A stretch of DNA of 64,000 nt from Agrobacterium sp. RAC06 (GTDB taxonomy: Bacteria; Pseudomonadota; Alphaproteobacteria; Rhizobiales; Rhizobiaceae), in assembly GCF_001713475.1 (NCBI RefSeq), contig NZ_CP016499.1:2170001-2234000 (forward strand). Direction: 5' to 3'. Positions 44,171 to 63,081 of the stretch are shown piece after piece. Each line of letters begins with the position of its first letter. Position 1 is the first letter of the stretch. The notes under the pieces were generated by a model that searched no databases, had not been told where the DNA came from, and saw only the letters and a program-made list of their open reading frames with translations. Made by a program: the position numbers and the translations under genes.

Positions 44171-44219
44171 GGTGGCTCCTTGAGGCTTTTCGTGGGGGCT
44201 CACGCCCGGTCGAAGGTGT

Positions 44220-45776: not shown

Positions 45777-45822
45777 GTTTGTCCTCCTCATCGCCACCCC
45801 TCAGGGGCCTCCTTGGCGAATT

Positions 45823-45837
45823 GTATGTTAAACATAC
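45823..45837. promoter_or_regulatory. Palindromic operator for the MarR regulator
   Basis: GTATGTT-A-AACATAC is a perfect seven-base inverted repeat in the 165-base gap between the CoA-ligase and marR starts. It is the strongest palindrome there and lies 47 bases upstream of the ligase ATG. MarR proteins of this pathway bind such sites and release on hydroxycinnamoyl-CoA (family knowledge). Confidence 0.72.
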
Positions 45838-45941
45838 TAATTGACCTCCAAGTGTTTGACAAGCGGCAATTTGACTGTTGCAGTCGAAAGTGATCATGAA
45901 TGATTCCGTAAGTTCGATGCCGCATGATTGGAAGAGGAGCC

Positions 45942-46454
45942 ATGACTCGACACAATGACCTGAAGCCCGCGAACGACGACGATGTCTTCGAAGTGGGCTC
46001 GCCATTACGCACAGGCCGCCTCGACGACATTCTCGGCTTTCACCTCAGGATGGCGAATGTCGCCATCTATCAGGACTACACGGCCGCCATGGGCGACATC
46101 GGGCTGACGCAGAAGCAGTTTGCCGTCCTCGAACTGATCGCCGCAAATCCGAGGGTGAGCCAGATCGACATCGCCAACCAGCTCAGCATGGACAGGGCAA
46201 CGATGATGGCGCTGGTGAACCGTCTGGAAAGCCGCAATCTTCTGGAACGGCAACCATCCCCCATCGATCGGCGACGCCAGGAGCTGCTGTTGACCGAGGC
46301 GGGGGCCGAGATCCTGAAACAGGCCCGCAACATCCAGAAACAGCATGAACTGCGCTTCACCGCGCGATTTACGCCCGAGGAACTGCAAGCATTCATCGAA
46401 GGGCTGAAGCGTGTCTATGCGGATATCATGCCACGCAACAGCCAGACCGACTGA
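45942..46454 (+). CDS. MarR-family regulator of hydroxycinnamate genes
   Basis: 170 residues from ATG 45942 with GAGGAG close upstream. The winged helix-turn-helix is at about 55-120 (SQIDIANQLSMDRATMMALVNRLE; R-R-Q-E-L wing). It is divergent from the ligase-hydratase operon and is a likely repressor induced by p-coumaroyl- or feruloyl-CoA, like CouR/FerR. It converges with the aldehyde dehydrogenase gene. Confidence 0.9.
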   Translation: MTRHNDLKPANDDDVFEVGSPLRTGRLDDILGFHLRMANVAIYQDYTAAMGDIGLTQKQFAVLELIAANPRVSQIDIANQLSMDRATMMALVNRLESRNLLERQPSPIDRRRQELLLTEAGAEILKQARNIQKQHELRFTARFTPEELQAFIEGLKRVYADIMPRNSQTD

Positions 46455-46480
46455 CCGTTGTCGACATGCTTGCGAAAGAA

Positions 46481-46507
46481 AAACGGCCGCCCGGAAGGCG
46501 GCCGTTT
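46481..46507. terminator. Bidirectional terminator between marR and the aldehyde dehydrogenase gene
   Basis: Eleven-base stem AAACGGCCGCC (46481-46491) with GGCGGCCGTTT (46497-46507), loop CGGAA, flanked by A-rich and T-rich ends. It serves both converging genes. Confidence 0.87.
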
Positions 46508-46518
46508 CATTTCCATGA

Positions 46519-47970
46519 TCAGAAGGGATAGTGCTGGTTCGGATCTTCGATCGTGATCCAGCGCAGCTCCGTAAACTCGGAGATCGCGGCCTTGCCGCCG
46601 AAGCGACCATAGCCACTGCCCTTAACGCCGCCGAAAGGCATCTGCGGCTCATCGAAGACCGTGGGGCCATTGATGTGGCAAATGCCGGACTCGATGCGCG
46701 CGGCGACAGCGAGCGCGCGGCGGATGTCGCGGCTGAAGACGGCGCCGGAGAGACCATACTCGGTATCGTTGGCAACGCGGATCGCTTCTTCCTCATCCTT
46801 CACGCGCATGATCGGCTTGACCGGGCCGAAGCTTTCTTCCTGATACATCCGCATGTCCGAGGTGACATTGTCGAGCAGAGTTGCTTCGACGACGCTGCCT
46901 TCGCGCTTGCCACCGGCAACGAGCTTTGCACCCTTGGAAACGGCGTCGGCGATCAGCTCATCCATCTTCTTTGCAGATTCGAGGCTGATGAGCGAGCCGA
47001 GCACGACGTGGCCCTTCGGATCGCCGGCCGGCAGCTTCGATGCCTTGGCGGCGAGCTTTGCGACGAACTCGTCGGCGATTTTTTCATCGACGATGATACG
47101 CTCGGTCGACATGCAGATCTGGCCCATATTGGCGAAGGCGCCAAAGGCGGCGGCGTTCACGGCCGCGTCAATGTCGGCATCATCGAGGATGACGAGCGGC
47201 GCCTTGCCGCCGAGCTCCAGAAGGGCCGGCTTCAGATGACGGCCGCACAGTTCGCCGATGATCTTGCCGACCTTGGTGGAGCCGGTGAAATTGACGCGCT
47301 TGACTGCCGGGTTGGTGATCAGGGCTTCGACGATCTGGGCTGCATCCTCGGGCGCATTGGTGATGACGCTGATGGCACCAGTCGGAAGGCCGGCTTCAAC
47401 GAGGCACTGAGCGATCAGACGATGGGTACCAGGGCACTGCTCCGATGCCTTCAGGATCACGGTGTTGCCGCAGGCGAGCGGCATGGCGACCGCACGGGTG
47501 CCGAGGATGATCGGCGCATTCCACGGCGCGATGCCAAGGCAAACGCCGACGGCCTGGCGCATGCCCATGGAGAGCGAACCCGGCTTGTTGGACGGGATGA
47601 CTTCGCCCGAGATCTGGGTGGTCATGGAAGCGGCTTCGCGCAACATGCTTGCAGCAACCATGACGTTGAAGGCGCCCCAATGGCCGGTGGCTCCGGTTTC
47701 GGCGACCACGAGTTCGGAGAACTCGGCGGTCTTCGATTCCATGATGTCAGCAGCCTTGAGCAGGATCTTGCGGCGCTCACCGGGGCCGGTCTTCGACCAG
47801 GCCGGGAAGGCTGCTGCAGCTGCGTCTACGGCTGCGTTGGCATCCTCGAGGCTTGCGGCCGAGGCCGTGGTCGCCACTTCCTGCGTAAAAGGATTGATGC
47901 GGGTAAAAGTGCGTCCGCCCGCGGCCGCCTTTTCGGCACCATTGATCAACAGCGAAACATGCATATTCAT
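46519..47970 (-). CDS. Aromatic aldehyde dehydrogenase (vanillin dehydrogenase type)
   Basis: 483 residues from ATG 47970, preceded by GGAGGAGGA. Catalytic Cys286 (NMGQICMSTE) and Glu252 (LLELGGKAP) are present, with the NAD-binding segment VNFTGSTKVGK. It closely resembles vanillin/benzaldehyde/salicylaldehyde dehydrogenases. With the hydratase-lyase it would turn vanillin or 4-hydroxybenzaldehyde into the acid. It has its own promoter and is not in the ligase operon. Confidence 0.92.
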   Translation of the reverse strand: MNMHVSLLINGAEKAAAGGRTFTRINPFTQEVATTASAASLEDANAAVDAAAAAFPAWSKTGPGERRKILLKAADIMESKTAEFSELVVAETGATGHWGAFNVMVAASMLREAASMTTQISGEVIPSNKPGSLSMGMRQAVGVCLGIAPWNAPIILGTRAVAMPLACGNTVILKASEQCPGTHRLIAQCLVEAGLPTGAISVITNAPEDAAQIVEALITNPAVKRVNFTGSTKVGKIIGELCGRHLKPALLELGGKAPLVILDDADIDAAVNAAAFGAFANMGQICMSTERIIVDEKIADEFVAKLAAKASKLPAGDPKGHVVLGSLISLESAKKMDELIADAVSKGAKLVAGGKREGSVVEATLLDNVTSDMRMYQEESFGPVKPIMRVKDEEEAIRVANDTEYGLSGAVFSRDIRRALAVAARIESGICHINGPTVFDEPQMPFGGVKGSGYGRFGGKAAISEFTELRWITIEDPNQHYPF

Positions 47971-48121
47971 GGATCTTCCTCCTCCATTATTTTCAGGTTC
48001 AGAAATTGGTCCGTCGTTTTCTTCCGGCCCCGCCTGCTCTCTTGCGATCAGGTCTCGATCCTCCAGAGAGCAGGTTATTCCTAAACGGACCGGCAACCTC
48101 CCCGATCCGCTCTATTTTGTA

Positions 48122-48149
48122 AGTCTAGCAAACAATTGTTTTTTGACAA
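48122..48149 (-). promoter_or_regulatory. Promoter with internal palindrome for the aldehyde dehydrogenase gene
   Basis: Minus strand TTGTCA (48149-48144), 16-base spacer, TAGACT (48127-48122). A perfect 12-base palindrome AAACAATTGTTT (48130-48141) fills the spacer, an ideal place for a repressor. The leader would be about 145 bases. Confidence 0.6.
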
Positions 48150-48171
48150 GTGGTGCCGCCTGGACGAGACG

Positions 48172-50373
<2,202 letters not shown>

Positions 50374-50387
<14 letters not shown>

Positions 50388-51975
50388 ACAGATCGATCAG
50401 AACCGGCCGCATCTCGTTCATCGGCCACTCGCGGGTCTGCGTCTCCGGGCGCATGCCGGGGAGGAACCCTTCCCGCTCAAAGCGGGCGACGAGGTCCCGA
50501 TCCGCCGATACGACATGGATCGGGACGGCGCGCGAAGCATTGGGGCCGGTGATTATGGCCGCAGGCTGATGGTCTCCGAGGATGACGAAGACGGTATCCT
50601 CGCCAAAGCGTGACATGTAACTGCCGAGAGTTTCGAGGGAATAGTCGATCGTCTGGATATATTGCGCGCGCACACGCTCCGGGTCGGCCCAGACGACCCG
50701 AGGCGGGTCGCCGCTTTCCGCCTGTGCGTTGAAGATCGAGCCGTCGCCGACGGCGTCCCAGTCGATGAGGCTGGCAACGGGTGTCCACGGCGCATGGCTG
50801 GAGATCAGCGCCACTTCCGCCATCACGCGTTCGCCCGCAGCCCGTGCAGGGGCGCGACCCAGGCGCTCGAAGGCTGACAGGGTATACTGATCCGGCATCG
50901 TGACCCAGTTGAAGGGCTTGCCCTGGTAATCGAGGTCGGCTGCCGCCAGGATCTGGCGATATCCGTAATATGCGGCTTCAGGCCACTCCATCGTAATGGC
51001 AGGCATGGCCGCGATGCTCTTCCATCCGGCTTCGGCAAACAGCCTGTTGAGGCTCGGTTGCTGGCTGATCATCAAGCGGTCGTAGCGCGCCTGGCTGTCG
51101 ACCCAGAGGCCGGAGAGGAGCGTTCCGTGCGCCAGCCAGCTGAGACCGCCAACGGTCGGAGCGGTGACCCAGGCACTGGCGGAAACGAGACCGGCTCGCT
51201 CAATCTCGGCTTGGACGCTTGCGAGGCGTGGTCGGGTGATCGACGCATATCGAGGATCCTCCAGCGCCGAGCGGCCATAGGATTCAACGAAGATAAGCAC
51301 GAAGTCCTTGTCCTTGACGCGTCCGAAGAGCCCGGCGCCGTTGCGGGGGCCCTCTCCCCGCGACAGAGCGGTTTCAAAGACATGCATGTCCTGAACAGAG
51401 CGGATGACAAGCGTCAGTCGCTTGTTGAGGTAAGAGGGCATGCGCGCTTCGACCCGGGGCGCGTCCAAAACAATCGCAATCCCGCCGAGAAGGGTGATCG
51501 CCACCAGCGACAGAACAAGCCATGAGCGCACGGGGCGCCCGATTTCCGTTAATCGGCGTGCCGCCCACAGAAACAGCATCAGTATGGCGGACAAGCCCAG
51601 AAGCGCGGCCGCGACAGCAGCAAAGGCTGCCAATGTGCCGACGGTCCCTGAAAACAGATTCCAGCCATCGGCCAGCATCTTGATATCGAGATAGGGATTG
51701 AACGGGCGCTGAAAAGCAGCCTGGGTGCCGATGTCGGCCATCTTCAGGAACAGGATCAGAAGCAGGACCAGTCCGCACAGAAGCCCGATCGGCCGACGTA
51801 GACTGCGCGGGACCGCGAGCAAGAGCAGCATCATCAATGCCCATTCGAGCGGCAGACGGGTAAAAGCATTGAGGGCGACAGCATCGGGGTGGTCCGGCAA
51901 GGTGAAAGCAAACCAGGCGATCACTGTCACCACGAGGGCGCCGATATAGGGCTTAAGCGTGTCGGCTGACTTCAT
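50374..51975 (-). CDS. Inner-membrane sulfatase/phosphoglycerol-transferase-fold protein
   Basis: 533 residues with about five hydrophobic segments in the first 170, then a periplasmic domain of the alkaline phosphatase/sulfatase fold. FVLIFVESYGRSALEDPRY holds the metal-binding Glu and the nucleophile region, and VFVILGDHQPA the C-terminal metal site. The build matches LtaS/OpgB-like enzymes that transfer head groups from lipids. In this window it sits beside envelope and lipid genes. The substrate is unknown. Confidence 0.82.
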
Positions 51976-52109
51976 GATCCAGTCACTCCGCTACCGAGAA
52001 GGGCAGATCGATTGCACGCGGGAGGATTTGCCGTCATGAAGGTCCGCTGCCTCTCTTTCCGCGTATAGGATAGCAAACGACCACTCACCCCCGACGAAAG
52101 CCCCGCCGC

Positions 52110-53030
52110 TTGCCCATTCTGCGTCTCCTTGCTCCCGTCGCGTTGATCGCGCTCCTGGCATTTCTCCTGTCCAGAACGGATCTGACCGCGCTGGGCGCCG
52201 CCTTCTCGCAGATCTCCCTTACGCATGTCATCGCCGGTCTTGCCCTGGTGCAGGTGCAGATCATCGTGTCGGCGCTGCGCTGGCGCTTTACCGCGAGCCG
52301 TCTCGGCGAACCGTTCCCGGCGAGCGTCGCGATCAGCGAGTACTACGTGGCGAGCCTTCTCAACCAAAGCCTTCCCGGCGGCGTCGCCGGTGATGCCGTG
52401 CGCGCCTACCGCATGCGCAATGCCGGCGCCGGCGGCTGGAAAGGACCAGCCAAGGCCGTGATCTTCGAGCGGCTTTCCGGCCAGGCTGCGTTTTTCGTTC
52501 TGGCGCTTTCCGGCCTGTTCGCCTGGCCGCTGGTCCTCGGAGGCGAGGATGCCGGACGTCAGGCCTTGCTGCTGGTGCTCTGCTTCTTCCTGTTTGCCGC
52601 CGCAGTCTGCGCGGGCCTGATCATCGTGAAGCGTCGGTACAAAGGGTTCAGCCATATCGGCGATGACCTGTTGCGCGTCTTCATCCGCCGTGGCGCGCTG
52701 CCTGTTCAGGCGGGGCTCAGCCTTGTGATCGTCGGCAGTTACGTCGCGACCTTCTTTCTTGCGAGCCATGCTGTTGGCGCGCCCCTCCCCGGCATTGCGG
52801 CATTCACGATCATTCCGCTCTGCCTGATCGCGATGCTGATCCCCGCTGGTTTCGGAGGCTGGGGTACGCGGGAAGCCGCCGCGATGGCGCTCTGGCCACT
52901 GCTTGGCGCCACCGAGAGCCAGGGATTGGCTGCGAGCGTCGTTTATGGAGCTCTCTCTCTTGCCGGCGCCCTGCCGGGTCTCGCGATCCTCTCGCTCGAG
53001 GCCATCCGCGGAAAGCCGCGTCGCGCCTGA
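52110..53030 (+). CDS. Flippase-like membrane protein (LPG synthase TM region / UPF0104)
   Basis: 306 residues with about eight membrane segments. The conserved pattern NQSLPGGVAGDAVRAYR is the hallmark of the lysylphosphatidylglycerol-synthase transmembrane family, whose members flip lipids or lipid-linked sugars. No aminoacyl-transferase domain is attached. The start is TTG 52110, the only start-like codon after an in-frame stop. It converges with the FkbM gene eight bases away. Confidence 0.82.
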   Translation: MPILRLLAPVALIALLAFLLSRTDLTALGAAFSQISLTHVIAGLALVQVQIIVSALRWRFTASRLGEPFPASVAISEYYVASLLNQSLPGGVAGDAVRAYRMRNAGAGGWKGPAKAVIFERLSGQAAFFVLALSGLFAWPLVLGGEDAGRQALLLVLCFFLFAAAVCAGLIIVKRRYKGFSHIGDDLLRVFIRRGALPVQAGLSLVIVGSYVATFFLASHAVGAPLPGIAAFTIIPLCLIAMLIPAGFGGWGTREAAAMALWPLLGATESQGLAASVVYGALSLAGALPGLAILSLEAIRGKPRRA

Positions 53031-53038
53031 ACGCATCG

Positions 53039-53797
53039 TCATCGGCTCTCTATCCGGGCGTAAACGTCGCCGGATTGCGCTTCGGGAGGCATTTGCGACA
53101 GCTCGACCAGCAGCTCGTCTGCCGATTTCCACCGGTCCGACACGAACCGATGCTGCTCTCCGACGACCCGGTTGAAGCGATAACTGCCGATGCCCATCAG
53201 ACGATCGATCGCGTTGGACGCAACGGAGGGCATGGCCGGAATGTATTCGAAGGCGATCAGGGGCATCGGCTTTGAAAGGCCGTAGAGAATTTCCGCCTCC
53301 GCGCCCTCGACGTCTATCTTGCAAAAGGCAGGCATACCGTATTTCGCGACGAGATGATCGAGCGTCACCATCGGCACCGTGACCTTGCGGTCCCAGACGA
53401 CCTGCGAAAACCCCTTGCTTTGCTTCACCGTCTCGACGAAGCGGCTGGAGATGCTTGTGACCGTCGGATGGCGGCTCGAGATCAGCAAATCGATCTGCCC
53501 GGCGGTCCGACCGACGGCCACCCGTTCGAAGCCGGTCAACGCGCCTGCAAAACGGTTTTCGATGAAGTCTGCGAAAGCTGGCTGGGGTTCGACCGCCACG
53601 ACTTTCGCTCCGAGCTTCAACAGGGTGCTGCTGCGGCTGCCGACATGGGCGCCGATGTCGAAGACGAGATCACCCGGCTTGACGATCGACGCATAGAATT
53701 GCCGCAGCGCCGATCTGCGCCAGGGCTGGCCGTAGTAGACGACGAGCGAGCGGGCGAGCCCGAATGATGTCGAGAGACGCTCGCTGAGACTGGTCAT
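53039..53797 (-). CDS. FkbM-family methyltransferase
   Basis: 252 residues. DLVFDIGAHVGSRSSTLLKLG is split over the SAM motif I and AVEPQPAF follows; FCKIDVEGAEAEIL is the FkbM-type motif near residue 165. FkbM enzymes O-methylate sugars, lipids or natural products. Its start overlaps the end of the CDP-alcohol phosphatidyltransferase gene as ATGA, so it is third in the operon ribA-like, CDP-alcohol transferase, FkbM. Confidence 0.9.
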   Translation of the reverse strand: MTSLSERLSTSFGLARSLVVYYGQPWRRSALRQFYASIVKPGDLVFDIGAHVGSRSSTLLKLGAKVVAVEPQPAFADFIENRFAGALTGFERVAVGRTAGQIDLLISSRHPTVTSISSRFVETVKQSKGFSQVVWDRKVTVPMVTLDHLVAKYGMPAFCKIDVEGAEAEILYGLSKPMPLIAFEYIPAMPSVASNAIDRLMGIGSYRFNRVVGEQHRFVSDRWKSADELLVELSQMPPEAQSGDVYARIESR

Positions 53798-54606
53798 GAC
53801 GTGACGGGCCGACGCAGCAGGTAGATCACGTCCACCGTAAACGAATAGGCGAGCGCCAGAAGCGCGACCGCTGCGATGGCGGTAGAATAGGGAACGGTCA
53901 CGAAGGGGATCAGGATCAGGCAGAGTGCCGAAATCTGGATCACGCAGACAAGCTTGCGTCGGAACGAGGGGAAGAGCTCGCCGTTCAGCTTCGGCAACAC
54001 CCAGCCTGCGGCCACGAAACCGTAGCGCATCAGGCCGATCAGCAATACCCAGAGACCCGCCTTTTCCAAGAAGGCTGCGGCGACGGACAGGACCAGGATC
54101 AGCACTGCATCGACTTCCATATCGAAGCGGGCACCGAAGGACGATTCATGTCCGTAGCTGCGCGCGAGATAACCATCGACGCCGTCGAGCGCCAAGGCGA
54201 TGAGAACCACACCGGCAAGTGTCCAGAGTGCCGTATCGGTCGCAGCGAGACTGTCGAAGCACAGCACGGTCGCGCCAGTCAGGCTAACGAGACAAGCGCG
54301 AAAGGCGGTGACGAGATTGGCCGGGCCGAACTTGCGATGGGGGTGATCGGGCAGAGCATAGACCACCAGCGCAAACATCAGCGCGAGCGACAGAATGACC
54401 GAGGCCACGAAATCCCAGCCGAGCGGGAGGTGAAAGGAGACGATCACCGCGACGACCGATGTGCCGACAAGCAGGCCTGAGAGGCCCGCCAGTGTGTTCA
54501 TCAGCAGTCCACGACGCTGTCGCAGCATCGCGACCCAGTCGAGCTGGGCATCTGCCCATGGCCGACCGAAACCATCGCCGCCAAGCCGTTCAGGCTCGCT
54601 TGCCAT
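53794..54606 (-). CDS. CDP-alcohol phosphatidyltransferase family protein
   Basis: 270 residues from ATG 54606 with GGGAGG eight bases upstream. About six membrane segments. The signature DG-x2-AR-x8-G-x3-D-x3-D is intact, from DGYLARSYGHESSFG to the final MEVD. Such enzymes join a CDP-activated head group or diacylglycerol to an alcohol. The first 50 residues extend beyond the core. It is placed between a GTP cyclohydrolase II and a methyltransferase, an unusual neighbourhood for lipid synthesis. Confidence 0.9.
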   Translation of the reverse strand: MASEPERLGGDGFGRPWADAQLDWVAMLRQRRGLLMNTLAGLSGLLVGTSVVAVIVSFHLPLGWDFVASVILSLALMFALVVYALPDHPHRKFGPANLVTAFRACLVSLTGATVLCFDSLAATDTALWTLAGVVLIALALDGVDGYLARSYGHESSFGARFDMEVDAVLILVLSVAAAFLEKAGLWVLLIGLMRYGFVAAGWVLPKLNGELFPSFRRKLVCVIQISALCLILIPFVTVPYSTAIAAVALLALAYSFTVDVIYLLRRPVTS

Positions 54607-54634
54607 CTTGCAATCCTCCCTGCCCGCCTGGAGC

Positions 54635-55741
54635 TTATTCTGCCGCGACCAGAGTTTCCAGATCGAGCATGTGGCCGGCGCGCAAGGTCTTGGTGCGCAG
54701 ATAGTTTTCGTTTTCCGCCGTGACCCGACCGGTGACCGACGCCCGTGCCTCGACTTCGATGCCGCCCAGCTTGAGGCCGGCGATCTTGGTCGGGTTGTTG
54801 GTGTAGACCGCCACCTTCGCGATCTCGAGATGCCGGAGCATGGCAACGGCTGCTTCATAACGGCGATGATCTTCGGCGAGCCCGAGCTCGGCATCCGCAT
54901 CGATCGTGTCGAGGCCGAGATGCTGATAGCCATAAGCACGCATCTTGGCGCCGATGCCCGTGCCGCGACCTTCCTGGTCGAGATAGAGCAGCACGCCGCC
55001 GCCCGCCTGCTTGAGCAGGGCAAAACCATTGCGCAGCTGGTCACCGCAATCGCATTTCAGGGAGCCGCAGAGGTCTCCGGTAAGGCAGGACGAGTGAATG
55101 CGGATCGGCACGGTCTTCGTGACATCCGGCTTACCGACGATGATGGCGACCTGATCCTTCTGAGCCAGGCCACCGCGGAAGACGACGAAGTCGGCATCAC
55201 CAAGATCCTTCAACGGAACGCGGGTGCGAACGACTTGGTCGAAGCGCTGACGGGCGGCATCAGCGCCTTTCAAACGGCTGGAGGCGATCTCGCAGCAACC
55301 GCCGAACCGATCTGTCATGGTCGTGACATCCGCCAGCACCATGGCCGGCAGCAACAGCGCCAGGCGGGCCAGTTCTGTCGTCTGTGTCGCCAGTGCATCC
55401 GCCGGCTGCCACAATGCAGGCTTTTCCGCACCAAGTGTGTAAGCAAGCCGTGAGGCATCATCGAAAGACAGACCGGCCAGCGGCGTGATCACGTCCTGTT
55501 CGGCTCCGATCCCCAAACGACCGGCCCGCGGCGCGGTCAACAGGAGGCTGTGCCGGTTCTCGGTGACGGCTGCGAATTGATCGAAAAGCGAGGGCGCTAC
55601 ACAGTCGAGCGCCAGGACAGCAAGCTTTCGTTCTCCCTCCGTTACGATCACGGGTCGGCCATAGCGCAGCTCGGCTACGGCGCGTTCTACTTCGATCTCG
55701 GCGGTCGAGAATTGGAAAGCGGACTGGCTGGACTTGGACAT
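54635..55741 (-). CDS. RibA-type GTP cyclohydrolase II with degenerate RibB-like N-terminus
   Basis: 368 residues from ATG 55741. Residues about 170-368 are a GTP cyclohydrolase II domain. The zinc site C-x10-C-x-C is in SSCLTGDLCGSLKCDCGD, with LYLDQEGRGTGIG and YTNNPTKIAGL. The conserved R before QEGRG in the Escherichia enzyme is D here. Residues about 20-160 resemble the RibB fold (GRPVIVTEGERKLAVLALD) but lack its acidic active-site motif. It probably opens GTP to a diaminopyrimidine. Its setting with glycosyl, methyl and reductase genes suggests a special pathway in place of, or beside, riboflavin synthesis. Confidence 0.88.
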   Translation of the reverse strand: MSKSSQSAFQFSTAEIEVERAVAELRYGRPVIVTEGERKLAVLALDCVAPSLFDQFAAVTENRHSLLLTAPRAGRLGIGAEQDVITPLAGLSFDDASRLAYTLGAEKPALWQPADALATQTTELARLALLLPAMVLADVTTMTDRFGGCCEIASSRLKGADAARQRFDQVVRTRVPLKDLGDADFVVFRGGLAQKDQVAIIVGKPDVTKTVPIRIHSSCLTGDLCGSLKCDCGDQLRNGFALLKQAGGGVLLYLDQEGRGTGIGAKMRAYGYQHLGLDTIDADAELGLAEDHRRYEAAVAMLRHLEIAKVAVYTNNPTKIAGLKLGGIEVEARASVTGRVTAENENYLRTKTLRAGHMLDLETLVAAE

Positions 55742-55900
55742 GAGGCGTACTCTCCCTATCAGTGGCAACCATTACGCCGAAGTTTCAGCGATGGTTTGCG
55801 CATCCGCCATAAATTTATTTTGATGGCGGCTAAGGAACAAAATGTCTTCTTCGGCAATACGTTCCATTGGTGCGCATATTTAGGGTGGGGGATCTGCAGT

Positions 55901-56902
55901 TTGAAGCTCGAGGTGAATGAACAATCCGTATCTGCCGGAAAGACGGCGGCTGCGCTGTGGTTCGAGGCAAAGGAAATCTGCCGGCTCCGGCATGAGCCGC
56001 TTGGCATGCCTGCTGGAAACGAAGTGCTCGTGCGAACACTCTACAGCGGGATCAGCCGCGGGACAGAGTCCCTGATCTTTCAAGGCGCGGTTCCTCAAAG
56101 CGAATTTGAACGCATGCGCGGACCGCATATGGAAGGCGAGTTCCCCTTTCCGGTCAAATATGGCTATGCGGCCGTCGGTGAAATCGTCGATGGTCCCCGT
56201 GAACTCATCGGACGCAATGTCTTTGCCCTTCATCCTCATCAGGATCGCTTCATCCTCCCGTCAGACCAAGTAACCCTGTTACCGGAGACGCTGCCGCCGC
56301 GACGGGCGGTGCTTGCCGCCAATATGGAAACAGCGCTCAACATTATCTGGGATGCAGGCGTGCAGCCGGGCGACCGCGTCGCCGTCTTCGGCGCCGGCGT
56401 TGTCGGGACGCTCGTCGCCTATATCGCCTCGCGGATTGCAGGCACGGAAACTGTCTTGATCGACAAGGATCCGTCGCGCCGTAATCTGGCTTCCGATCTG
56501 GACCTCACGTTTGCCGAGCCCGACATGATCGACGGGGAATTCGACATCTTGATCAACGCCAGCGCAGCCGCGGTCGCGCTCGAAAACGCCATCGCCCATG
56601 CGGGCTTTGAAGCGAGAATTGTCGAAGCCAGCTGGTATGGCGACCGCATGGTCAGCATTCCCCTGGGCGGTGCGTTTCATTCTCGACGCCTGTCCCTCGT
56701 CAGTTCGCAAGTCGGCGGAATTCCTTCGTCACGCCGGGCTCGCTGGACCTATCACCGGCGAATGAGCAAGGCGCTGGAACTGCTCCTGGATCCGCGTCTC
56801 GAGCGCCTTATCTCCGGTGAGACCGCTTTTTCTGAACTGCCAGACGCCTACGCTCGTATCCTCTCCACACAGGACACCCTGTGCCATCGCATCCGCTACT
56901 GA
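55901..56902 (+). CDS. MDR-family (alcohol dehydrogenase-like) oxidoreductase
   Basis: About 333 residues. GTESLIFQGAVP and VKYGYAAVGEIV belong to the N-terminal catalytic fold. AVFGAGVVGTLVAYIA is the Rossmann loop, and VEASWYGDRMVSIPLGG lies in the second half. The usual zinc-ligand Cys of alcohol dehydrogenases is not obvious, so it may be zinc-free. I took TTG 55901 with GGGGGA eight bases upstream; GTG 55913 is possible. It is the first of four rightward genes and is divergent from the GTP cyclohydrolase gene. Confidence 0.85.
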   Translation: MKLEVNEQSVSAGKTAAALWFEAKEICRLRHEPLGMPAGNEVLVRTLYSGISRGTESLIFQGAVPQSEFERMRGPHMEGEFPFPVKYGYAAVGEIVDGPRELIGRNVFALHPHQDRFILPSDQVTLLPETLPPRRAVLAANMETALNIIWDAGVQPGDRVAVFGAGVVGTLVAYIASRIAGTETVLIDKDPSRRNLASDLDLTFAEPDMIDGEFDILINASAAAVALENAIAHAGFEARIVEASWYGDRMVSIPLGGAFHSRRLSLVSSQVGGIPSSRRARWTYHRRMSKALELLLDPRLERLISGETAFSELPDAYARILSTQDTLCHRIRY

Positions 56903-56915
56903 CGAAAGAGATCTC

Positions 56916-57314
56916 ATGTTCGCTGTTGAAGTCCGAGACCATATCATGATCGCCCACAGCCTGCCGCGTCCGGTCTTCGGGCCTGCACAGGGGATGCATG
57001 GCGCAACCTTTGTCGTCGATGCGGCCTTTTTCACCAAGGACGTGGACGAGGATGGCCTCGCCGTCGATATCGGTGCTGCGACAACCGTTCTGTCCGAGGT
57101 CTTGAAGCCGCTGAACTATCAGAACCTGGACGAGCTTGCGGTCTTCAAAGGCAAGATCAGCACGACGGAAGTCATTGCAAAACACATCTTTGACCAACTG
57201 GCGCAGGCCGTGTCCGACAAGCGTCTTGGCCCCGGCAGCCATCGGATCTGCCGCCTGAAGGTCATGCTGCACGAATCCCATGCGGCCCGTGGCTGGTACG
57301 AGGCCGATCTTTGA
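56916..57314 (+). CDS. 6-pyruvoyltetrahydropterin synthase/QueD-like protein with altered active site
   Basis: 132 residues from ATG 56916, the length of a single T-fold subunit. His14 (IAHSLP) and His28 (MHGA) match two zinc ligands. The third ligand position, usually H in HGH, is Ala30. The catalytic Cys before HGH is absent, and the Asp-His pair is Asn67-Tyr68 (LNYQNL). Glu120 (LHESH) is kept. It therefore may not catalyse the usual triphosphate elimination. Its stop overlaps the glycosyltransferase TTG. Confidence 0.85.
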   Translation: MFAVEVRDHIMIAHSLPRPVFGPAQGMHGATFVVDAAFFTKDVDEDGLAVDIGAATTVLSEVLKPLNYQNLDELAVFKGKISTTEVIAKHIFDQLAQAVSDKRLGPGSHRICRLKVMLHESHAARGWYEADL

Positions 57315-58354
57315 ACCCTTCCCTCGTGTTCGCCTATCCGGGCGACCTGGCTCTGAAGACCGGCGGTTATGGCTACGACCGCCGAGTTATCGATGGACTT
57401 CGCGAATGCGGCTGGCAGGTCAGGCTTCTGCCGGTTGGCGACGGGTTTCCGGTTCCCACCGCAGACACGCTGGACCGGGCGGAAGCAGCCCTGTCGACAC
57501 TGCCGGACGGGACGCTCGTTATGATCGACGGGCTCGCCTTCGGCGTCCTCGACGCCTGGGCAAGAGACCATGTCGAACGGCTTCGGATCATTGCTCTTGT
57601 TCATCATCCGCTCGCCCTCGAAACAGGGTTGTCGGACGAAGAGCAGCATCGCTTCCGACAGAGCGAACAGAGGGCGCTGGCGACAGCCCGGCATGTGATC
57701 GTGACCTCGCCGATGACGGCACGTGAACTTGCATCCAATTATGGCGTCGCGTCTTCCCGCATTACGGTCGCCCTGCCCGGGATCGACAAGAGCGATACAA
57801 GGCGCGTCGTCAATGCGGCCCCGCAGATCCTGTCGGTCGGCACACTCACCCGGCGCAAGGGTCATGACGTGCTGCTGAGGGCTCTCAAATCGGTCGAGGA
57901 TCTCGACTGGCAGGCCGTGATCATTGGAAGCAAGAGCCTCGATCCTTCGACGAGCGAAGCGCTGGCGCGACAGGTGGAAGCGCTGGGCCTGGAAGCGCGC
58001 GTTCAGTTACTCGGCGAGGTGGACGACCCGCGGGTGAACTTCGCCTCGGCGGACATGTTTGCACTGGCGAGCCGATACGAAGGCTATGGGATGGTGTTTG
58101 CCGAAGCTCTGTCTCACGGGCTTCCGATCGTGGCGTGCCATGCCGGAGCGGTTCCAGACGTCGTTCCTGCTGACGCGGGGATTTTGGTGCCGGTCGATGA
58201 CGCACCGGCTTTCGGAGAGGCGCTCCGTCGTCTGCTGCAAAGCCCGCAGGAGCGCGAGACGCGGTCTGCGGCGGCCCTTCAAGCCGGCAGCCTCTTGCCA
58301 ACATGGGCAGACACGGCAGCAATCATCTCCAACACATTGGATGGAATTTCATGA
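57311..58354 (+). CDS. Glycosyltransferase family 4
   Basis: 347 residues, starting TTG 57311 in a TTGA overlap with the preceding stop. GYGYDRRVIDGL is in the N-terminal Rossmann half; ILSVGTLTRRKGHDVLLRAL and ASRYEGYGMVFAEALSHG are in the donor half, the latter with the E-x7-E motif. It is a retaining GT-B enzyme using a nucleotide sugar. Acceptor unknown; the operon suggests a pterin- or pyrimidine-type aglycone or a lipid carrier. The next start overlaps its stop as ATGA. Confidence 0.92.
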   Translation: MNPSLVFAYPGDLALKTGGYGYDRRVIDGLRECGWQVRLLPVGDGFPVPTADTLDRAEAALSTLPDGTLVMIDGLAFGVLDAWARDHVERLRIIALVHHPLALETGLSDEEQHRFRQSEQRALATARHVIVTSPMTARELASNYGVASSRITVALPGIDKSDTRRVVNAAPQILSVGTLTRRKGHDVLLRALKSVEDLDWQAVIIGSKSLDPSTSEALARQVEALGLEARVQLLGEVDDPRVNFASADMFALASRYEGYGMVFAEALSHGLPIVACHAGAVPDVVPADAGILVPVDDAPAFGEALRRLLQSPQERETRSAAALQAGSLLPTWADTAAIISNTLDGIS

Positions 58355-59148
58355 GTGGCTTCAACAAGGACTGGCTGGCACTGCGCGAACCTGTCGATAT
58401 GAGGGCGCGGGCGAAGCCGCTGGTCGAGCAATTGTCGCAGCATCTCGGCGGTATCGAACGCCCCAACATACTCGATATCGGCTGCGGCACCGGCTCGACC
58501 TGGCGGAGCCTGGCACATCGCTTCCCGGCCCATGCGAAATGGCAGTTGCTCGACTACGACCCGCTGCTGCTGGCGGAGGCCGAACGCCGTATCGGGGATC
58601 AACAGGATGTCTATTTTCGCCAGTTCGATCTGAACAAGATCGATACGCTGCCGCTCACCGAGGTGAGCGTGGTGACGGCATCGGCTCTCTTCGATCTCTG
58701 CTCGGCAGACTTCTGCGATCACTTTGCCGAGACTCTCGCTGTGAGCAAAACGCGGCTCTATGCCGCGCTGAACTATGACGGCGTCATGGAATGGTCCGTT
58801 GCTCATCCGCTTGATGAACAGGTCGCCAAAGACTTCAATCAGCACCAGCATTTCGACAAGGGCTTTGGGCCGGCACTCGGCCCAGACGCGACCGCGCATC
58901 TGAAGCAAGCTTTCGAGCGTTTGGGCTATGCGGTCTCGGTTGCCACCAGCCCTTGGGTGATGGGCCCTGATGACGGTGACCTGCAGGCCGCTTTTCTCGA
59001 GGGGCTCGAACAGCCGCTATCGGAGATCGGTACTCTGACTGACGTCCAAATCAGGCACTGGCTGGATTTCAGGCTTGCGAAGATCGCAGAGGCCGGCAGC
59101 TCATGCGTGGTCGGCCACTCGGATATCCTCGCGCTCCCCCGACACTGA
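58351..59148 (+). CDS. Class I SAM-dependent methyltransferase
   Basis: 265 residues. SAM motif I is NILDIGCGTGSTWRSL (about residues 39-54), followed by the acidic LLDYDP. It is translationally coupled to the glycosyltransferase. The last 16 codons overlap, on the opposite strand, the end of the RibD-like reductase gene. Substrate unknown; it probably modifies the product of this cluster. Confidence 0.9.
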   Translation: MSGFNKDWLALREPVDMRARAKPLVEQLSQHLGGIERPNILDIGCGTGSTWRSLAHRFPAHAKWQLLDYDPLLLAEAERRIGDQQDVYFRQFDLNKIDTLPLTEVSVVTASALFDLCSADFCDHFAETLAVSKTRLYAALNYDGVMEWSVAHPLDEQVAKDFNQHQHFDKGFGPALGPDATAHLKQAFERLGYAVSVATSPWVMGPDDGDLQAAFLEGLEQPLSEIGTLTDVQIRHWLDFRLAKIAEAGSSCVVGHSDILALPRH

Positions 59149-59910
59149 AACAGCTGGGTTTTTCAGATCGCAATCGAACAGGATGTCGCTGCCGAGGCTA
59201 TAGACCTTGGCAGCCGGCCGGTGAGCGCTTGAAAGCTTGTCGATCGGCGGCAGCGCGATGCCGGCAGGTCCCGAGCCAATGATCAGCGGGGCGATCGCGA
59301 CGTGCAGGCGATCGACGAGATCGGCTTCGATGAAGCGGGCAATCGTGCGTGCGCCTCCCTCGACGAGGATGCGACGCAAGCCGCGGTCCGCGAGTGCATC
59401 GAGGATGTCCTGAGGATCAAGGCCGCCCTTGCCCCTGCGAACTCTGATGACGTCGGCTCCATGGGATTTGACCGGTGCATCATGCCCCTGCACGAGAATG
59501 ACTGGTGCGCCGCCGTCGCGAAACAGGCGTTCCTCGCCGGTCAGTTCCGCGCGACAATCAATCACGACGCGGACGGGATTGGGGCCCTTCACTGCCCTGA
59601 CGGAAAGTCTCGGGTCGTCGCATTTGACGGTGCCGACACCGACGACCACGGCTTCCACGAGCGCGCGACAGCGATGAAGATGGGCGATGCCGTCGCTTCC
59701 GGAAATGTCGCGTGCGTCACCTGATGGCGTGGCCACGCGGCCATCGAGCGACTGGCCGACCTGCGCCAGAACAAAGCCGCGCTCTGCGGCGGCAATCGGT
59801 GCGTACAGGGCCATGACGGGATCGCCTTCGTCTGCACCGGTCTGGCTTGCGCTGCCGCGCATGGCAAGAAGGCGCGCCCAAAGCTGGTCCGTCATTTCGA
59901 TCTTACGCAT
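59101..59910 (-). CDS. RibD C-terminal-type reductase, stand-alone
   Basis: 269 residues from ATG 59910 with AGGA upstream. The RibD_C fold begins near residue 45 (GFVLAQVGQSLDGRVAT), continues with VVVGVGTVKCDDPRLSVR and ends with RILVEGGARTIARFIEADLVD. There is no deaminase domain. In riboflavin synthesis this fold reduces the ribosyl chain of the pyrimidine made from GTP, so it logically follows the RibA-like enzyme of this cluster. It converges with the methyltransferase gene, overlapping by 48 bases. Confidence 0.9.
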   Translation of the reverse strand: MRKIEMTDQLWARLLAMRGSASQTGADEGDPVMALYAPIAAAERGFVLAQVGQSLDGRVATPSGDARDISGSDGIAHLHRCRALVEAVVVGVGTVKCDDPRLSVRAVKGPNPVRVVIDCRAELTGEERLFRDGGAPVILVQGHDAPVKSHGADVIRVRRGKGGLDPQDILDALADRGLRRILVEGGARTIARFIEADLVDRLHVAIAPLIIGSGPAGIALPPIDKLSSAHRPAAKVYSLGSDILFDCDLKNPAVSVSGEREDIRVADHA

Positions 59911-59932
59911 CGAGGTCCTGTCCCGGAGAGTT

Positions 59933-60469
59933 TTACAAAATGCGATAAAGCGTACCGTCGCGGCGGATCACGTGATGGAAGACCACCGCCGAAATATGCA
60001 ACGCAAAGAGAGCCAAAATGATCCACGCGCTCCAGGCATGGATTGCCGAAAGGGTGGACGCTATTTCCGGTGACTTGCCGATCGGGCTCCAGACAGTGAA
60101 CAGACCAAACCATTTGAGCGGAAAGCCATGGGCATTGGTTGCCAGAAACCCGGAAACCGGCATGACGATCAAGAAGACATAGAGAAGCCCGTGCACCACG
60201 TGGGCGGCTGCCTTTTCCAATCGCGGTGCCTCGACCAGAGGCGCCCCGCTCGTCAGCCTTGCGCCGATCCGCACCAGCATCAGCCACAGGACCAGAAAGC
60301 CCAGGCTTTCATGGATCAGATAGAAGTCGAGCTTGACGTCATCCTTCACGAACCCAATCATCTGGCCAAGCGGCCAGGTAATGAGGACAAGGACTGCAAT
60401 CAGCCAATGGAGGATGCGCAACGTGCCTGCATAGCGTTCGCCCGCCACCATCGATTGTGCGCCGTTCAT
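59933..60469 (-). CDS. Cytochrome b561
   Basis: 178 residues with four membrane segments and paired His residues for heme b: RILHWLIAV in segment 1, IHESLG in segment 2, HVVHGLLYV in segment 3 and ALHISAVVFHH in segment 4. It moves electrons across the inner membrane. It lies 22 bases after the end of the reductase gene frame on the same strand, upstream of it, so it may be co-transcribed with it. Confidence 0.93.
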   Translation of the reverse strand: MNGAQSMVAGERYAGTLRILHWLIAVLVLITWPLGQMIGFVKDDVKLDFYLIHESLGFLVLWLMLVRIGARLTSGAPLVEAPRLEKAAAHVVHGLLYVFLIVMPVSGFLATNAHGFPLKWFGLFTVWSPIGKSPEIASTLSAIHAWSAWIILALFALHISAVVFHHVIRRDGTLYRIL

Positions 60470-60611
60470 TACACTTTGCTCCGATCCCAGACCATTCGTG
60501 CGCCAGACCTCCTCGCCTGCCGCCCATCAGTCATCCGCCATCAGGATGTGACGGTTTGACAACAATGTAAACGGAAGATCAGGGCTCGTAGATCATGTCA
60601 CGCTGTGGTGA

Positions 60612-61790
60612 TCAGAGCGTCGGAGGCGCTTTCTGGAAGAAAACATAGGAGCCTTTGGCGACCTTGAAGATATCGCAGTTGCGCCGGACCTTGCGATCGC
60701 CCTCCAGACGGAAGACCCCGAGCGAGCCCGAAAAGCCATCCGGCGACATGAGCCGCTCGGGCCCGAAGGCCAGCTCCCGGAAACGGCCAGCGAGGCCAAT
60801 GGCCATCGCCATGGCGTCGAAGCCGTAGCCGGCCTGGGCAGAGGCCGGCATGCCATAACTCGCCATATACCGGCTGCCGATCCTTGCCTGGACGTTCTGG
60901 TCATAGCGACAGACGATGCTGCCTGTCAGCTTCGGCTCATTCAGGTCCTGGGCCGTCAGAACGGCACTCGCGACAATCCTGCGTCCCGGACGCGGCGGCT
61001 TGGCGGCATCCGCCTTCTTCAACACCTCGCCCGGCGACTTGATGCCTGGCATCAACACCACCATGTCGGCCTTGCTCCACGAATTGAGAGCCTTTGCAGG
61101 CAGCGTGCCGCCGCTCAGTTCGACAATCGGCTCAACCTTGCCGCCAAAGGCCTTGATCTGGCTGGCGATGCGATCAGCCTGAGCCTTTTCTGCCGGAGAT
61201 GAGGCGAGGATCACCGCATGCGTCGCCCCTTCGGCCATTGCGAAGGACGCGCTTTCTATCAGGCTGTCGGCAGGGCTGGATACGAAGGGATAGACATTTT
61301 CAGGCAGGTCCGCCTCGTTTGTCTGGAATGCAACCATGGGGACCTGAAGTCCGCCCAGGCCACGTTGGATCGCTTCAAACTCCGCACCACGGGCGGTAGT
61401 GACGATGAAGGATACCTGCTGGCGCGCCAGGGTCCTTGCCGCGGCCTCGATCGCCTCCGGCTTTTCCGTCGTCTCAAGCATGGTGAGCTTCACGACGTCG
61501 GAACCGAGCATGTTGACGGCCAGAGCGGCGCCATCCCGGTATTCGCTATCGGCCTGGCGGCCCGGTTGATCCGCACGACGGACACCGAGATAGGCGACCT
61601 TCACCGAACCGGATCCCAGGGTCTGGTTGTAGAGACCCGTATCGTTGGCGGGGTTGACGGCCGCAGAGGCTCCGCCTTCACCAGCGTTCGGCTTGAAGTC
61701 ATCGGTCTGACAAGAGGAGAGAGCGGCAAGCAGCAGAGCCGAAGCTCCGGCGCGCAGGAAGCTCCGCGTAAAGTGTTTTATTCCGACCAT
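60612..61790 (-). CDS. Periplasmic-binding-fold lipoprotein (penicillin-binding protein activator type)
   Basis: 392 residues from ATG 61790. The signal ends in the lipobox LAALSSC. The rest is a type I periplasmic-binding fold (VKVAYLGVRRADQPG; FIVTTARGAEFEAI; AVILASSPAEKAQADRIASQ). It resembles LivJ-type binding proteins and the LppC/LpoA family. No ABC permease genes lie nearby, which favours a stand-alone envelope role over transport. The start is not strongly marked. Confidence 0.82.
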   Translation of the reverse strand: MVGIKHFTRSFLRAGASALLLAALSSCQTDDFKPNAGEGGASAAVNPANDTGLYNQTLGSGSVKVAYLGVRRADQPGRQADSEYRDGAALAVNMLGSDVVKLTMLETTEKPEAIEAAARTLARQQVSFIVTTARGAEFEAIQRGLGGLQVPMVAFQTNEADLPENVYPFVSSPADSLIESASFAMAEGATHAVILASSPAEKAQADRIASQIKAFGGKVEPIVELSGGTLPAKALNSWSKADMVVLMPGIKSPGEVLKKADAAKPPRPGRRIVASAVLTAQDLNEPKLTGSIVCRYDQNVQARIGSRYMASYGMPASAQAGYGFDAMAMAIGLAGRFRELAFGPERLMSPDGFSGSLGVFRLEGDRKVRRNCDIFKVAKGSYVFFQKAPPTL

Positions 61791-62044
61791 GATGGCGCCA
61801 AGTCTCGTTCCTGATCCGTTGGCGAACGTTAAGCATTGGCACTCGGCGAAGCAAGAGCGAAGGTGTTCCATATCTGGGCAGACTGCAGCAAAGGCAACAG
61901 CTGGGCTCGACTGGCAATACAGGAGAACGGCTTAGATTCCAGACGCCTTCAACGCCTGGATTTCCTGCCTTCTGGCCACCTTGGTTAACAAGACCTGCCA
62001 ATTATCCACCGGATTTTACTTTAATATAGCGATGCATATTCAAA

Positions 62045-62063
62045 GTATAGAAGCCATCTATAC
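62045..62063. promoter_or_regulatory. Inverted repeat, candidate operator
   Basis: GTATAGA (62045-62051) and TCTATAC (62057-62063) form a perfect seven-base inverted repeat with loop AGCCA, 56 bases upstream of the protease ATG. It may bind a dimeric regulator. Confidence 0.5.
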
Positions 62064-62085
62064 GAACCGATAATTCAAGCATTGC

Positions 62086-62118
62086 CGCTATTCTTCAAGC
62101 AACAATTGGAGAATAGCG
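62086..62118 (+). promoter_or_regulatory. Leader hairpin next to the start codon
   Basis: CGCTATTCT (62086-62094) pairs with AGAATAGCG (62110-62118) around a 15-base loop. The ribosome site GGAG (62108-62111) lies at the loop/stem edge and the ATG follows the stem directly, so folding could limit translation. Confidence 0.55.
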
Positions 62119-63081
62119 ATGCTCAAGAACAACAAGAAAATTGTCGCAGTCTCGGCCCTCGTAGCGGCTACCCTAGTTTCATCGGGTTCGATGGCGGCTC
62201 CCATGCTGCCACATACGATGACTTCTTACTCAAACGTCGCCCAGACGCTCGTGCTTGGAATGAGCCCCCTTGCAGGCTCGCTCGGCACAAATCTCTTCGG
62301 CAAGATCGAGCAGCGCTGGTCCCAGACCACGGAACTCTTTGCCCAGTCGATCGCCACACAGGTCGTCGCGTTCGCTCCGCTGCGTACGGACCTCTCGACC
62401 GGCACCGTCGCGACAGCGCCAAAAGAAATAGCACCCAACCGGCGCAAGACACCAACCGATGATGTCTTCGACTCTGTGGCCATTCCCTTCAAGAAACTCG
62501 GCGCACTGAAGAAGGCGGCACCGACCTTTTCTGAGATCGCCAAGGGTACCGCGCTTCAGTGCGGCGGCGCCAATTGTTTCGACATGGATGCTGTGGTCCA
62601 CCGGACATCGGCCGGCGGCGGCATGTCTTCGCTCCGCGACAAGCTCAACCTCGTCAATCACGAGGTGAACCGCCGCATCAAGTACCGCAAGGATATCGAC
62701 AGTCACGGTCGGGTGGATCAGTGGTCCTCCCCGTCCCAGACCCTCGCTTCCGGCTACGGCGACTGCGAAGACTATGCCCTCTTGAAAATGGCGGTCCTCG
62801 AAGCACAAGGCTTTTCACTGCAGGACATGACCGTCGTCATCCTCTACGACAAAAAGCGGCACTTCTATCATGCCGTTCTGTCGGTCGAGATCCAGGGAAC
62901 GCACTACATCCTGGACAACATGCGGGATCAGGTTCTGGCGGACAGCCGCCTGCCCGATTACCAGCCGCTATTCTCCATTTCCAATGGCCGCGGCTTTCTG
63001 CACGGTACCCGCACAAAGGGTAAAGCCATGGCCATGAAGAGCTTCGACAGCATCGCACCGGGCGAAGGCGGGGAACTCTGA
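62119..63081 (+). CDS. Transglutaminase-like cysteine protease (BTLCP/LapG-like)
   Basis: 320 residues with a signal peptide (1-26, ending SMA-AP). The catalytic domain is C-terminal: Cys216 in GYGDCEDYALLK, His251 in HAVLSV, Asp266 in ILDNM. BTLCP proteins resemble LapG, which cuts cell-surface adhesins exported by type I secretion; a HlyD gene lies 700 bases away. Residues 30-150 are low-conservation. The leader has unusual inverted repeats. Confidence 0.92.
   Translation: MLKNNKKIVAVSALVAATLVSSGSMAAPMLPHTMTSYSNVAQTLVLGMSPLAGSLGTNLFGKIEQRWSQTTELFAQSIATQVVAFAPLRTDLSTGTVATAPKEIAPNRRKTPTDDVFDSVAIPFKKLGALKKAAPTFSEIAKGTALQCGGANCFDMDAVVHRTSAGGGMSSLRDKLNLVNHEVNRRIKYRKDIDSHGRVDQWSSPSQTLASGYGDCEDYALLKMAVLEAQGFSLQDMTVVILYDKKRHFYHAVLSVEIQGTHYILDNMRDQVLADSRLPDYQPLFSISNGRGFLHGTRTKGKAMAMKSFDSIAPGEGGEL

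Follow-up and report, generated by a model that had tools for sequence, protein, structure and literature searches.

From our analysis of a 64,000-nucleotide stretch of Agrobacterium sp. RAC06 (contig NZ_CP016499.1, positions 2,170,001 to 2,234,000; hereafter the window, with positions counted from its first letter), the genes around a PTPS-IV type T-fold protein were found to form a real and widely conserved set which is apparently unnamed. We read this cluster, with a probability of roughly 60%, as a branch, so far uncharacterised, that leaves riboflavin synthesis at its first steps and would lead to an aminopyrimidine or pterin bearing sugar and methyl groups, whose handling in this organism would take place at the membrane. 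Its core is read rightward and consists of an MDR-superfamily dehydrogenase (55901..56902, + strand; BchC-like by alignment and by a TIGR01202 match of 65.7 bits, below cut-off), the PTPS-IV protein (56916..57314, +), a GT4 glycosyltransferase (57311..58354, +, TTG start; PF13692 2.2e-30) and a class I S-adenosylmethionine (SAM)-dependent methyltransferase (58351..59148, +; PF13649, Methyltransf_25, 4.1e-10, and alignment). On either side, genes of the opposite strand encode RibA, a GTP cyclohydrolase II with an N-terminal degenerate RibB-like domain (54635..55741, −), and a stand-alone RibD_C, the pyrimidine reductase domain without a deaminase (59101..59910, −; PF01872 7.9e-40, with TIGR00227 and TIGR01508 below cut-off). 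All genes listed in the initial annotation were recovered as open frames between 50374 and 59910, and the overlaps it described among the rightward genes are real, PTPS/GT4 and GT4/SAM each sharing 4 bases. The methyltransferase and RibD_C overlap convergently by 48 bases, and RibA and the dehydrogenase diverge across about 160 bases, the start codons of these last two being our choice (a TTG start, read from the sequence, is assumed for the dehydrogenase).

Conservation of the gene order

We compared 135 loci, all chosen by similarity of the PTPS protein, comprising 15 from the genus, 5 from the order, 35 from the class and 80 from a scan of named genomes; the distinct loci number 134 because L059 is the same place as L027. 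The order of dehydrogenase, PTPS, GT4 and SAM methyltransferase was kept on one strand and within 4.5 kb in 128 of the 135, and given this the arrangement is not due to chance. Conserved co-occurrence in other genomes, which the initial annotation had set as its own test, was strongly confirmed in the loci of the genus, order, class and named scan alike. The named-scan loci, which are the best 80 of at least 588 confirmed PTPS relatives ranked by similarity to the query, are mostly from Streptomyces, with others from Actinomadura, Variovorax, Thauera, Marinobacter, Halomonadaceae, a few alphaproteobacteria and one Gemmatimonadales genome; the cluster spans three phyla (Pseudomonadota, Actinomycetota and Gemmatimonadota). 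Among the seven exceptions to the order, two are contig ends (L013, L014), one has its dehydrogenase gene elsewhere (L136), and four are missing GT4, SAM or both in the profile search (L010, L011, L021, L062). The PTPS protein itself was present in 36 of 289 genomes sampled evenly over the Alphaproteobacteria and in 27 of 60 near-relative genomes (own genome counted in both), and in 19 of 299 Pseudomonadota genomes when a different family member served as the query. Distance matrices of the core proteins correlated at 0.49-0.87, values that stand without an unrelated control gene for comparison.

Two small genomes (G259 of 1.4 Mb and G161 of 1.6 Mb; loci L004 and L007) keep a compact, bare set of seven genes, namely creatininase, MDR dehydrogenase, PTPS-IV, GT4, SAM methyltransferase, RibD and RibA, and the genes flanking these sets, as far as they were checked by Pfam, are mostly unrelated in appearance (transporters, aminotransferase, CoA ligase, phosphatase, GST). 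Plasmids carry the cluster as well. A PTPS match occurs in 20 plasmid records; five of them were examined, and four of these five contain the cluster (Agrobacterium, Methylosinus, Microbacterium and Thiodictyon). In the Microbacterium plasmid, which is typed as mobilizable, the CDP-alcohol phosphatidyltransferase, MDR, PTPS, GT4, SAM, flippase and RibD genes stand together, and no RibA was seen in the stretches examined of the Methylosinus, Microbacterium and Thiodictyon plasmids.

Altered PTPS-IV and a RibA with intact zinc cysteines

The window PTPS protein (PF01242 8.5e-20) is the single PTPS-family match in its genome, and its neighbours RibA (PF00925) and RibD_C (PF01872) are both present in the window. 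Residues F21, G22, P23, A24 and Q25 are invariant in 22 aligned PTPS-IV proteins and form the FGPAQ signature, which is given as the mark of PTPS-IV in the available part of an earlier account (PMC5445326). The canonical PTPS/QueD motif, CxxxHGH or CxxxxxHGH, is lost, as A24, H28, G29 and A30 are invariant in all 22 proteins (HGH changed to HGA); judged by its residues, PTPS-IV should not carry out the PTPS reaction. The nearest solved structure is 3d7j, that of SCO6650 (E 1.5e-59), a protein reported to be devoid of zinc, of a catalytic triad and of PTPS activity. Within the genus, complete copies of PTPS-IV are 90-100% identical, and the SAM, GT4 and MDR proteins go down to 54, 56 and 60%, respectively. 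Such a strong constraint (L039-L052, L058) is unusual for a catalytically altered protein.

The window RibA, judged by its intact zinc cysteines, is a GTP cyclohydrolase II (Pfam GTP_cyclohydro2 1.2e-45; equivalog NF006456 480.7 bits, cut-off 464). The signature C..GD...S..CDCG and the tyrosine column are complete, with C219, C230, C232 and Y270 invariant in 15 sequences, the columns being placed by alignment to E. coli GTP cyclohydrolase II. Its N-terminal 170 residues align to the RibB profile with 97.2% probability in hhalign (E 4e-11; none of four control profiles exceeded 0.2%) and lack the RibB catalytic motif RENEGDL, so that the protein is not a bifunctional RibBA; searched alone by sequence, this N-terminal part gave no PDB match. 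The housekeeping RibBA of the genome (C1:1687337-1688392; L002, L165) is its mirror image, with an intact RibB half and a cyclohydrolase half devoid of any cysteine, and because of this loss the cluster RibA is the sole canonical GTP cyclohydrolase II of the two PF00925 matches in the genome. This condition is recurrent, as 13 of the 14 RibB open reading frames (ORFs) found with a strict pattern in 24 fetched loci of the class sample, own genome included, are long fusions and 11 of these 13 are without the cysteine motif. The second ribD that the initial annotation had proposed to look for does exist as a full RibD elsewhere in the genome, and the second ribBA exists too, but with this cysteine-free cyclohydrolase half; a separate RibB and two creatininase-family genes are also found elsewhere. 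In the stand-alone RibD of the cluster only RibD_C was found, and no deaminase domain of the bifunctional enzyme.

In 36 genomes of the genus, full-length RibA (NF006456 of at least 463 bits) was found in 21 of the 22 with PTPS-IV, two of these 22 copies being contig-end pieces only, and in none of the 14 without it; among these 14 are two genomes of only 66% and 88% completeness and one with a 164-bit RibA stretch that is interrupted by stops. In G317, the single PTPS-IV genome lacking full-length RibA, the other cluster genes are retained (L052) and a short RibA lies on a different contig. As 14 of the 36 genus members are without both RibA and PTPS-IV, the cluster RibA is unlikely to be the housekeeping enzyme.

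Variable partners and membrane variants

We then estimated the presence of each partner using sequence profiles at a 60-bit threshold. Low counts may be underestimates because the profiles are mainly alphaproteobacterial and contig ends truncate some of the loci; the flippase profile was built from three sequences and the creatininase profile from four. For example, an actinobacterial gene (L091) with about 100 bits in the RibD profile reaches 1.8e-40 with Pfam RibD_C. In the genus (15 loci), MDR, GT4, SAM, CDP-alcohol transferase, flippase, RibD, sulfatase-fold and cytochrome b561 genes were found in all 15, RibA in 14, FkbM in 8 and creatininase in 0. The class loci (35) carry MDR in 34, GT4 in 33, SAM in 31, RibD in 27, RibA and CDP-alcohol transferase in 12 each, b561 in 8, FkbM and creatininase in 6 each, sulfatase-fold in 5 and flippase in 0. 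All five order loci have MDR, GT4 and SAM; b561 is in four, RibD and RibA in three each, creatininase and FkbM in one each, and the profile search gave no CDP-alcohol transferase, flippase or sulfatase-fold gene there. In the best 80 named-scan loci, the counts were 80 for MDR and SAM, 79 for GT4, 76 for CDP-alcohol transferase, 68 for flippase, 61 for RibA, 60 for creatininase, 23 for RibD, 10 for sulfatase-fold, 4 for FkbM and 1 for b561.

In the window, the CDP-alcohol phosphatidyltransferase (53794..54606, −; PF01066 9.6e-17), whose motif D..DG..AR........G...D...D is intact in an alignment of 12 sequences, and an FkbM-family methyltransferase, an optional member (53039..53797, −; PF05050 9.8e-15), follow downstream of RibA. 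A flippase-like LPG_synthase_TM membrane protein (52110..53030, +; PF03706 7.3e-37) and a sulfatase/alkaline-phosphatase-fold membrane protein (50374..51975, −) end that side. The sulfatase-fold naming of this last gene stands on a weak family match (PF00884 0.0015, below cut-off); its profile finds the lipoteichoic acid primase 4uop weakly in the PDB (E 0.00057), with no single stretch passing alone. Outside the genus, the 40 loci of class and order divide into 12 with the CDP-alcohol transferase, 13 with an MdoH/OpgH-like membrane glycosyltransferase (L012, L016, L020-L024, L026, L053-L057), 15 with neither and none with both, an exclusion with a Fisher P of 0.0035 that serves as a guide only since the loci are related. 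When 12 hand-picked non-Streptomyces loci of the named scan were added, one (L104) carried both, its MdoH match being 29% identical. An all-against-all search of gene families returned several apparent antisense shadow ORFs, one of which pointed to the MdoH-like gene on the opposite strand. The pattern reads as a common core product with differing membrane handling, the window being of the CDP-alcohol type and Methylosinus trichosporium OB3b of the MdoH type.

RibA residue type and creatininase

The tyrosine column of RibA varies together with creatininase. In SCO6655, the GTP cyclohydrolase II homologue of Streptomyces coelicolor, a methionine is said to replace this tyrosine, so that the enzyme stops at the formylated pyrimidine. 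Of 92 RibA rows (the window being counted twice, as itself and as L001, and the misaligned 72-bit row of L005 being left out of the reading), 50 are of the methionine type and 7 of the histidine type, and creatininase is in the locus in 50 of 50 and 7 of 7 cases, those of Actinomadura and Actinopolymorpha among the histidine-type loci. The remaining tyrosine type, to which the window belongs, accounts for 34 rows, 6 with creatininase and 28 without; the latter include the actinobacterial L091 and L127 (cut by a contig end). Independent events are few, because most methionine rows are from Streptomyces and 16 tyrosine rows are from one genus. This residue pattern fits a role of creatininase as a putative formamidase where RibA does not deformylate. 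A member of the creatininase family, BrbF, is an AFRPP formamidase by assay and has a role in riboflavin synthesis in Sinorhizobium and Brucella, according to the available part of the source (PMC9478397).

Proposed pathway

Taking these observations together, RibA would open GTP to give 2,5-diamino-6-ribosylamino-4(3H)-pyrimidinone 5'-phosphate; in the relatives with methionine- or histidine-type RibA, the formyl intermediate would probably be cut by the creatininase-family formamidase. The stand-alone RibD domain could then reduce the ribosyl to a ribityl chain, and the 2-amino group would be kept because no deaminase is present. PTPS-IV may bind this pyrimidine or a derived pterin and reshape it with the MDR dehydrogenase, whereupon GT4 would attach a sugar and the SAM methyltransferase would methylate the product. 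In the window variant, the CDP-alcohol phosphatidyltransferase would probably join the product to a phospholipid, the flippase-like protein could carry it to the other side of the membrane, and its trimming or decoration might fall to the sulfatase-fold and FkbM proteins. The gene families, their conserved order, the joint inheritance of RibA and PTPS-IV in the genus, the lost PTPS motif and the RibA zinc cysteines are observed, and we infer all substrates, the sequence of late reactions and the attachment to a lipid; an aminopyrimidine or pterin core with sugar and methyl is likely, and lipid attachment is plausible for the window variant. The interpretation in the initial annotation is supported in part: the glycosylated, methylated pyrimidine or pterin that it suggested survives as the best reading of the seven-gene set, and its suggested joining to a lipid fits the CDP-alcohol transferase and the flippase, both of which vary across taxa.

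Several observations weigh against this pathway. RibA was detected in only 12 of the 35 class loci, and these include a weak 72-bit match. RibD passed the threshold in only 23 of the 80 named-scan loci. The CDP-alcohol transferase was seen in 12 of the 35 class loci and in none of the five order loci, its place being taken by the MdoH/OpgH-like glycosyltransferase in 13 of 40 alphaproteobacterial loci, and the bare sets of the small genomes have neither CDP-alcohol transferase nor flippase; therefore the lipid step is not universal. The formamidase reading leaves unexplained the six tyrosine-type loci with creatininase (L104, L061, L024, L004, L053, L007). An orphan PTPS-IV also exists, on the plasmid of Streptomyces sp. 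NBC_00028 (L172:9001-9399), with no partners in the annotated stretch.

Alternative explanations

A neighbouring idea, which we find unlikely, is that the cluster makes a tetrahydrobiopterin (BH4)-like pterin glycoside by the GTP cyclohydrolase I route, PTPS giving 6-pyruvoyl-tetrahydropterin, the MDR protein reducing it and GT4 glycosylating it. Pterin glycosides of this kind are known in cyanobacteria and a PTPS fold does adjoin a dehydrogenase and a GT4 here, but the change of Cys to Ala-24 and of HGH to HGA in 22 of 22 aligned PTPS-IV proteins argues against it, and the recurrent cyclohydrolase is of type II, often with creatininase (no search for FolE was made in loci or genome). A similarly small chance attaches to a narrow, toxoflavin-like secondary metabolite or antimetabolite. 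The set of RibA, RibD and methyltransferase and its frequency in Streptomyces would suit such a product, yet the cluster has a fixed order in three phyla, is kept in genomes of 1.4-1.6 Mb, and has a PTPS-IV that is 90-100% identical across complete copies in the genus as against 54, 56 and 60% at the lowest for its SAM, GT4 and MDR partners; the toxoflavin parallel drawn in the initial annotation extends to the shared RibA/RibD only.

That RibA and RibD are a spare module supplementing vitamin B2 or serving flavin secretion, with the other genes unrelated, is very unlikely to our mind, even though, of the GTP cyclohydrolase II matches in the genome, only that of the cluster is canonical. The 14 genus members that do without full-length RibA and PTPS-IV speak against it, and it is the four genes outside riboflavin synthesis that vary least in the cluster. 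The stretch 49000-63000 has no Rfam match and therefore no flavin mononucleotide (FMN) riboswitch, and no RibH or RibE is among the ten cluster proteins. We give almost no credence to a QueD gene of queuosine synthesis lying in a chance neighbourhood, as would follow from the public records that label PTPS-IV '6-carboxytetrahydropterin synthase'. These database names, the absence of another PTPS-family match in the genome and two QueC matches (23.2 and 22.2 bits, formally over the cut-off of 22) favour it; set against them are the PTPS-IV signature and the lost catalytic motif, and both QueC matches cover only 60-70 of 210 positions inside longer frames, so that they resemble a different ATPase family (no search for QueE was made). 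The public label is probably wrong, because these matches cover only a third of the family.

Cytochrome b561 and surrounding genes

A cytochrome b561 gene (59933..60469, −; PF01292 3.5e-29) lies beyond RibD_C and belongs to the neighbourhood that recurs in the genus and, less generally, in the class. In 40 other alphaproteobacterial genomes, b561 was within 10 kb of PTPS-IV in 12 (0.61 expected) and YceI, a lipid-binding protein, in 8 (0.18 expected), the expectations being derived from copy number and genome size under random placement and near or far being judged by eye from the listed places. The Thiodictyon plasmid has a cytochrome b gene inside the operon, and in G342 a PRK08815-type RibA far from PTPS-IV adjoins a b561 gene (C1:1622047-1623956). 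Peroxiredoxin (AhpC/TSA) genes near the cluster, at L007:14071-14511 (after RibA) and L025:13265-13966, agree with a redox theme. Conceivably, the product could be a membrane-anchored, reduced pterin or aminopyrimidine redox lipid, a quinone-like carrier served by b561 and YceI; we regard this as doubtful and keep it as a lead. Against it, b561 is in 1 of the 80 named-scan loci, which are mostly actinobacterial, strong YceI matches are in 5 of the 80 together with two weak ones of 30% identity, and no YceI match was found in the window's own genome.

Among the remaining features, the dehydrogenase has the segment SGISRGTE in the alignment, at the position where zinc-type MDRs have a cysteine, and the SAM methyltransferase profile gave generic matches only in the PDB. 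A scan of 50000-60700 returned 1 promoter-like site (1.9 expected) and 12 terminator-like sites (6.6 expected). The adjoining genes at 43343-50387 resemble aromatic-acid catabolism (enoyl-CoA hydratase, acyl-CoA synthetase, MarR, aldehyde dehydrogenase, a 4-hydroxybenzoate-hydroxylase-like monooxygenase and an AraC regulator), named from their translations with only AraC confirmed by Pfam.

Relation to known systems and significance

Among characterised proteins, SCO6650 of Streptomyces coelicolor (PDB 3D7J) is a PTPS homologue of the same PTPS-IV family. In contrast to SCO6655, the window RibA has the tyrosine and an extra degenerate RibB domain, and no creatininase accompanies it in the 15 genus loci; the window further has genes for FkbM, a sulfatase-fold protein and cytochrome b561, in a comparison that did not include the S. 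coelicolor locus. The first steps share their families with early riboflavin synthesis (RibA, the BrbF/ArfB formamidase and RibD), but the cluster is without a deaminase domain, an active RibB, RibH and RibE and adds glycosyl, methyl and membrane genes. The toxoflavin and pterin glycoside pathways have in common with the cluster a GTP-derived pyrimidine or pterin and methyl or sugar transfer; neither is known to have a counterpart of PTPS-IV, the CDP-alcohol transferase or the flippase. The initial annotation knew of no named pathway with this gene set, and none was found in the literature searched, although the PTPS-IV/RibA/RibD neighbourhood was already noticed in 2017 (PMC5445326). In the available part of that paper, AGeNNT cluster 62 comprises 561 sequences and has in common with the window the FGPAQ signature and the PF00925 and PF01872 neighbours; PF00925 is read there as FolE2, and the same part names no dehydrogenase, GT4, methyltransferase, CDP-alcohol transferase, flippase or creatininase. 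A 2016 paper, in the part available, assigns PTPS-IV to archaeal F420 on unpublished grounds (PMC5041015). Neither the cluster as a whole nor its product is described in the literature searched, most subscription papers being outside its coverage, so that an unseen report is possible.

That a gene set with an apparently undescribed product keeps its order in three phyla, and persists even in genomes of 1.4-1.6 Mb, suggests a bacterial cofactor or membrane lipid that is still to be found. Such a pathway would give a role to the PTPS-IV family, which is publicly named as a queuosine enzyme, and to the GTP cyclohydrolase of Streptomyces that reportedly retains the formyl group. In essence, the seven-gene set with its two membrane variants is a small, testable comparison set.

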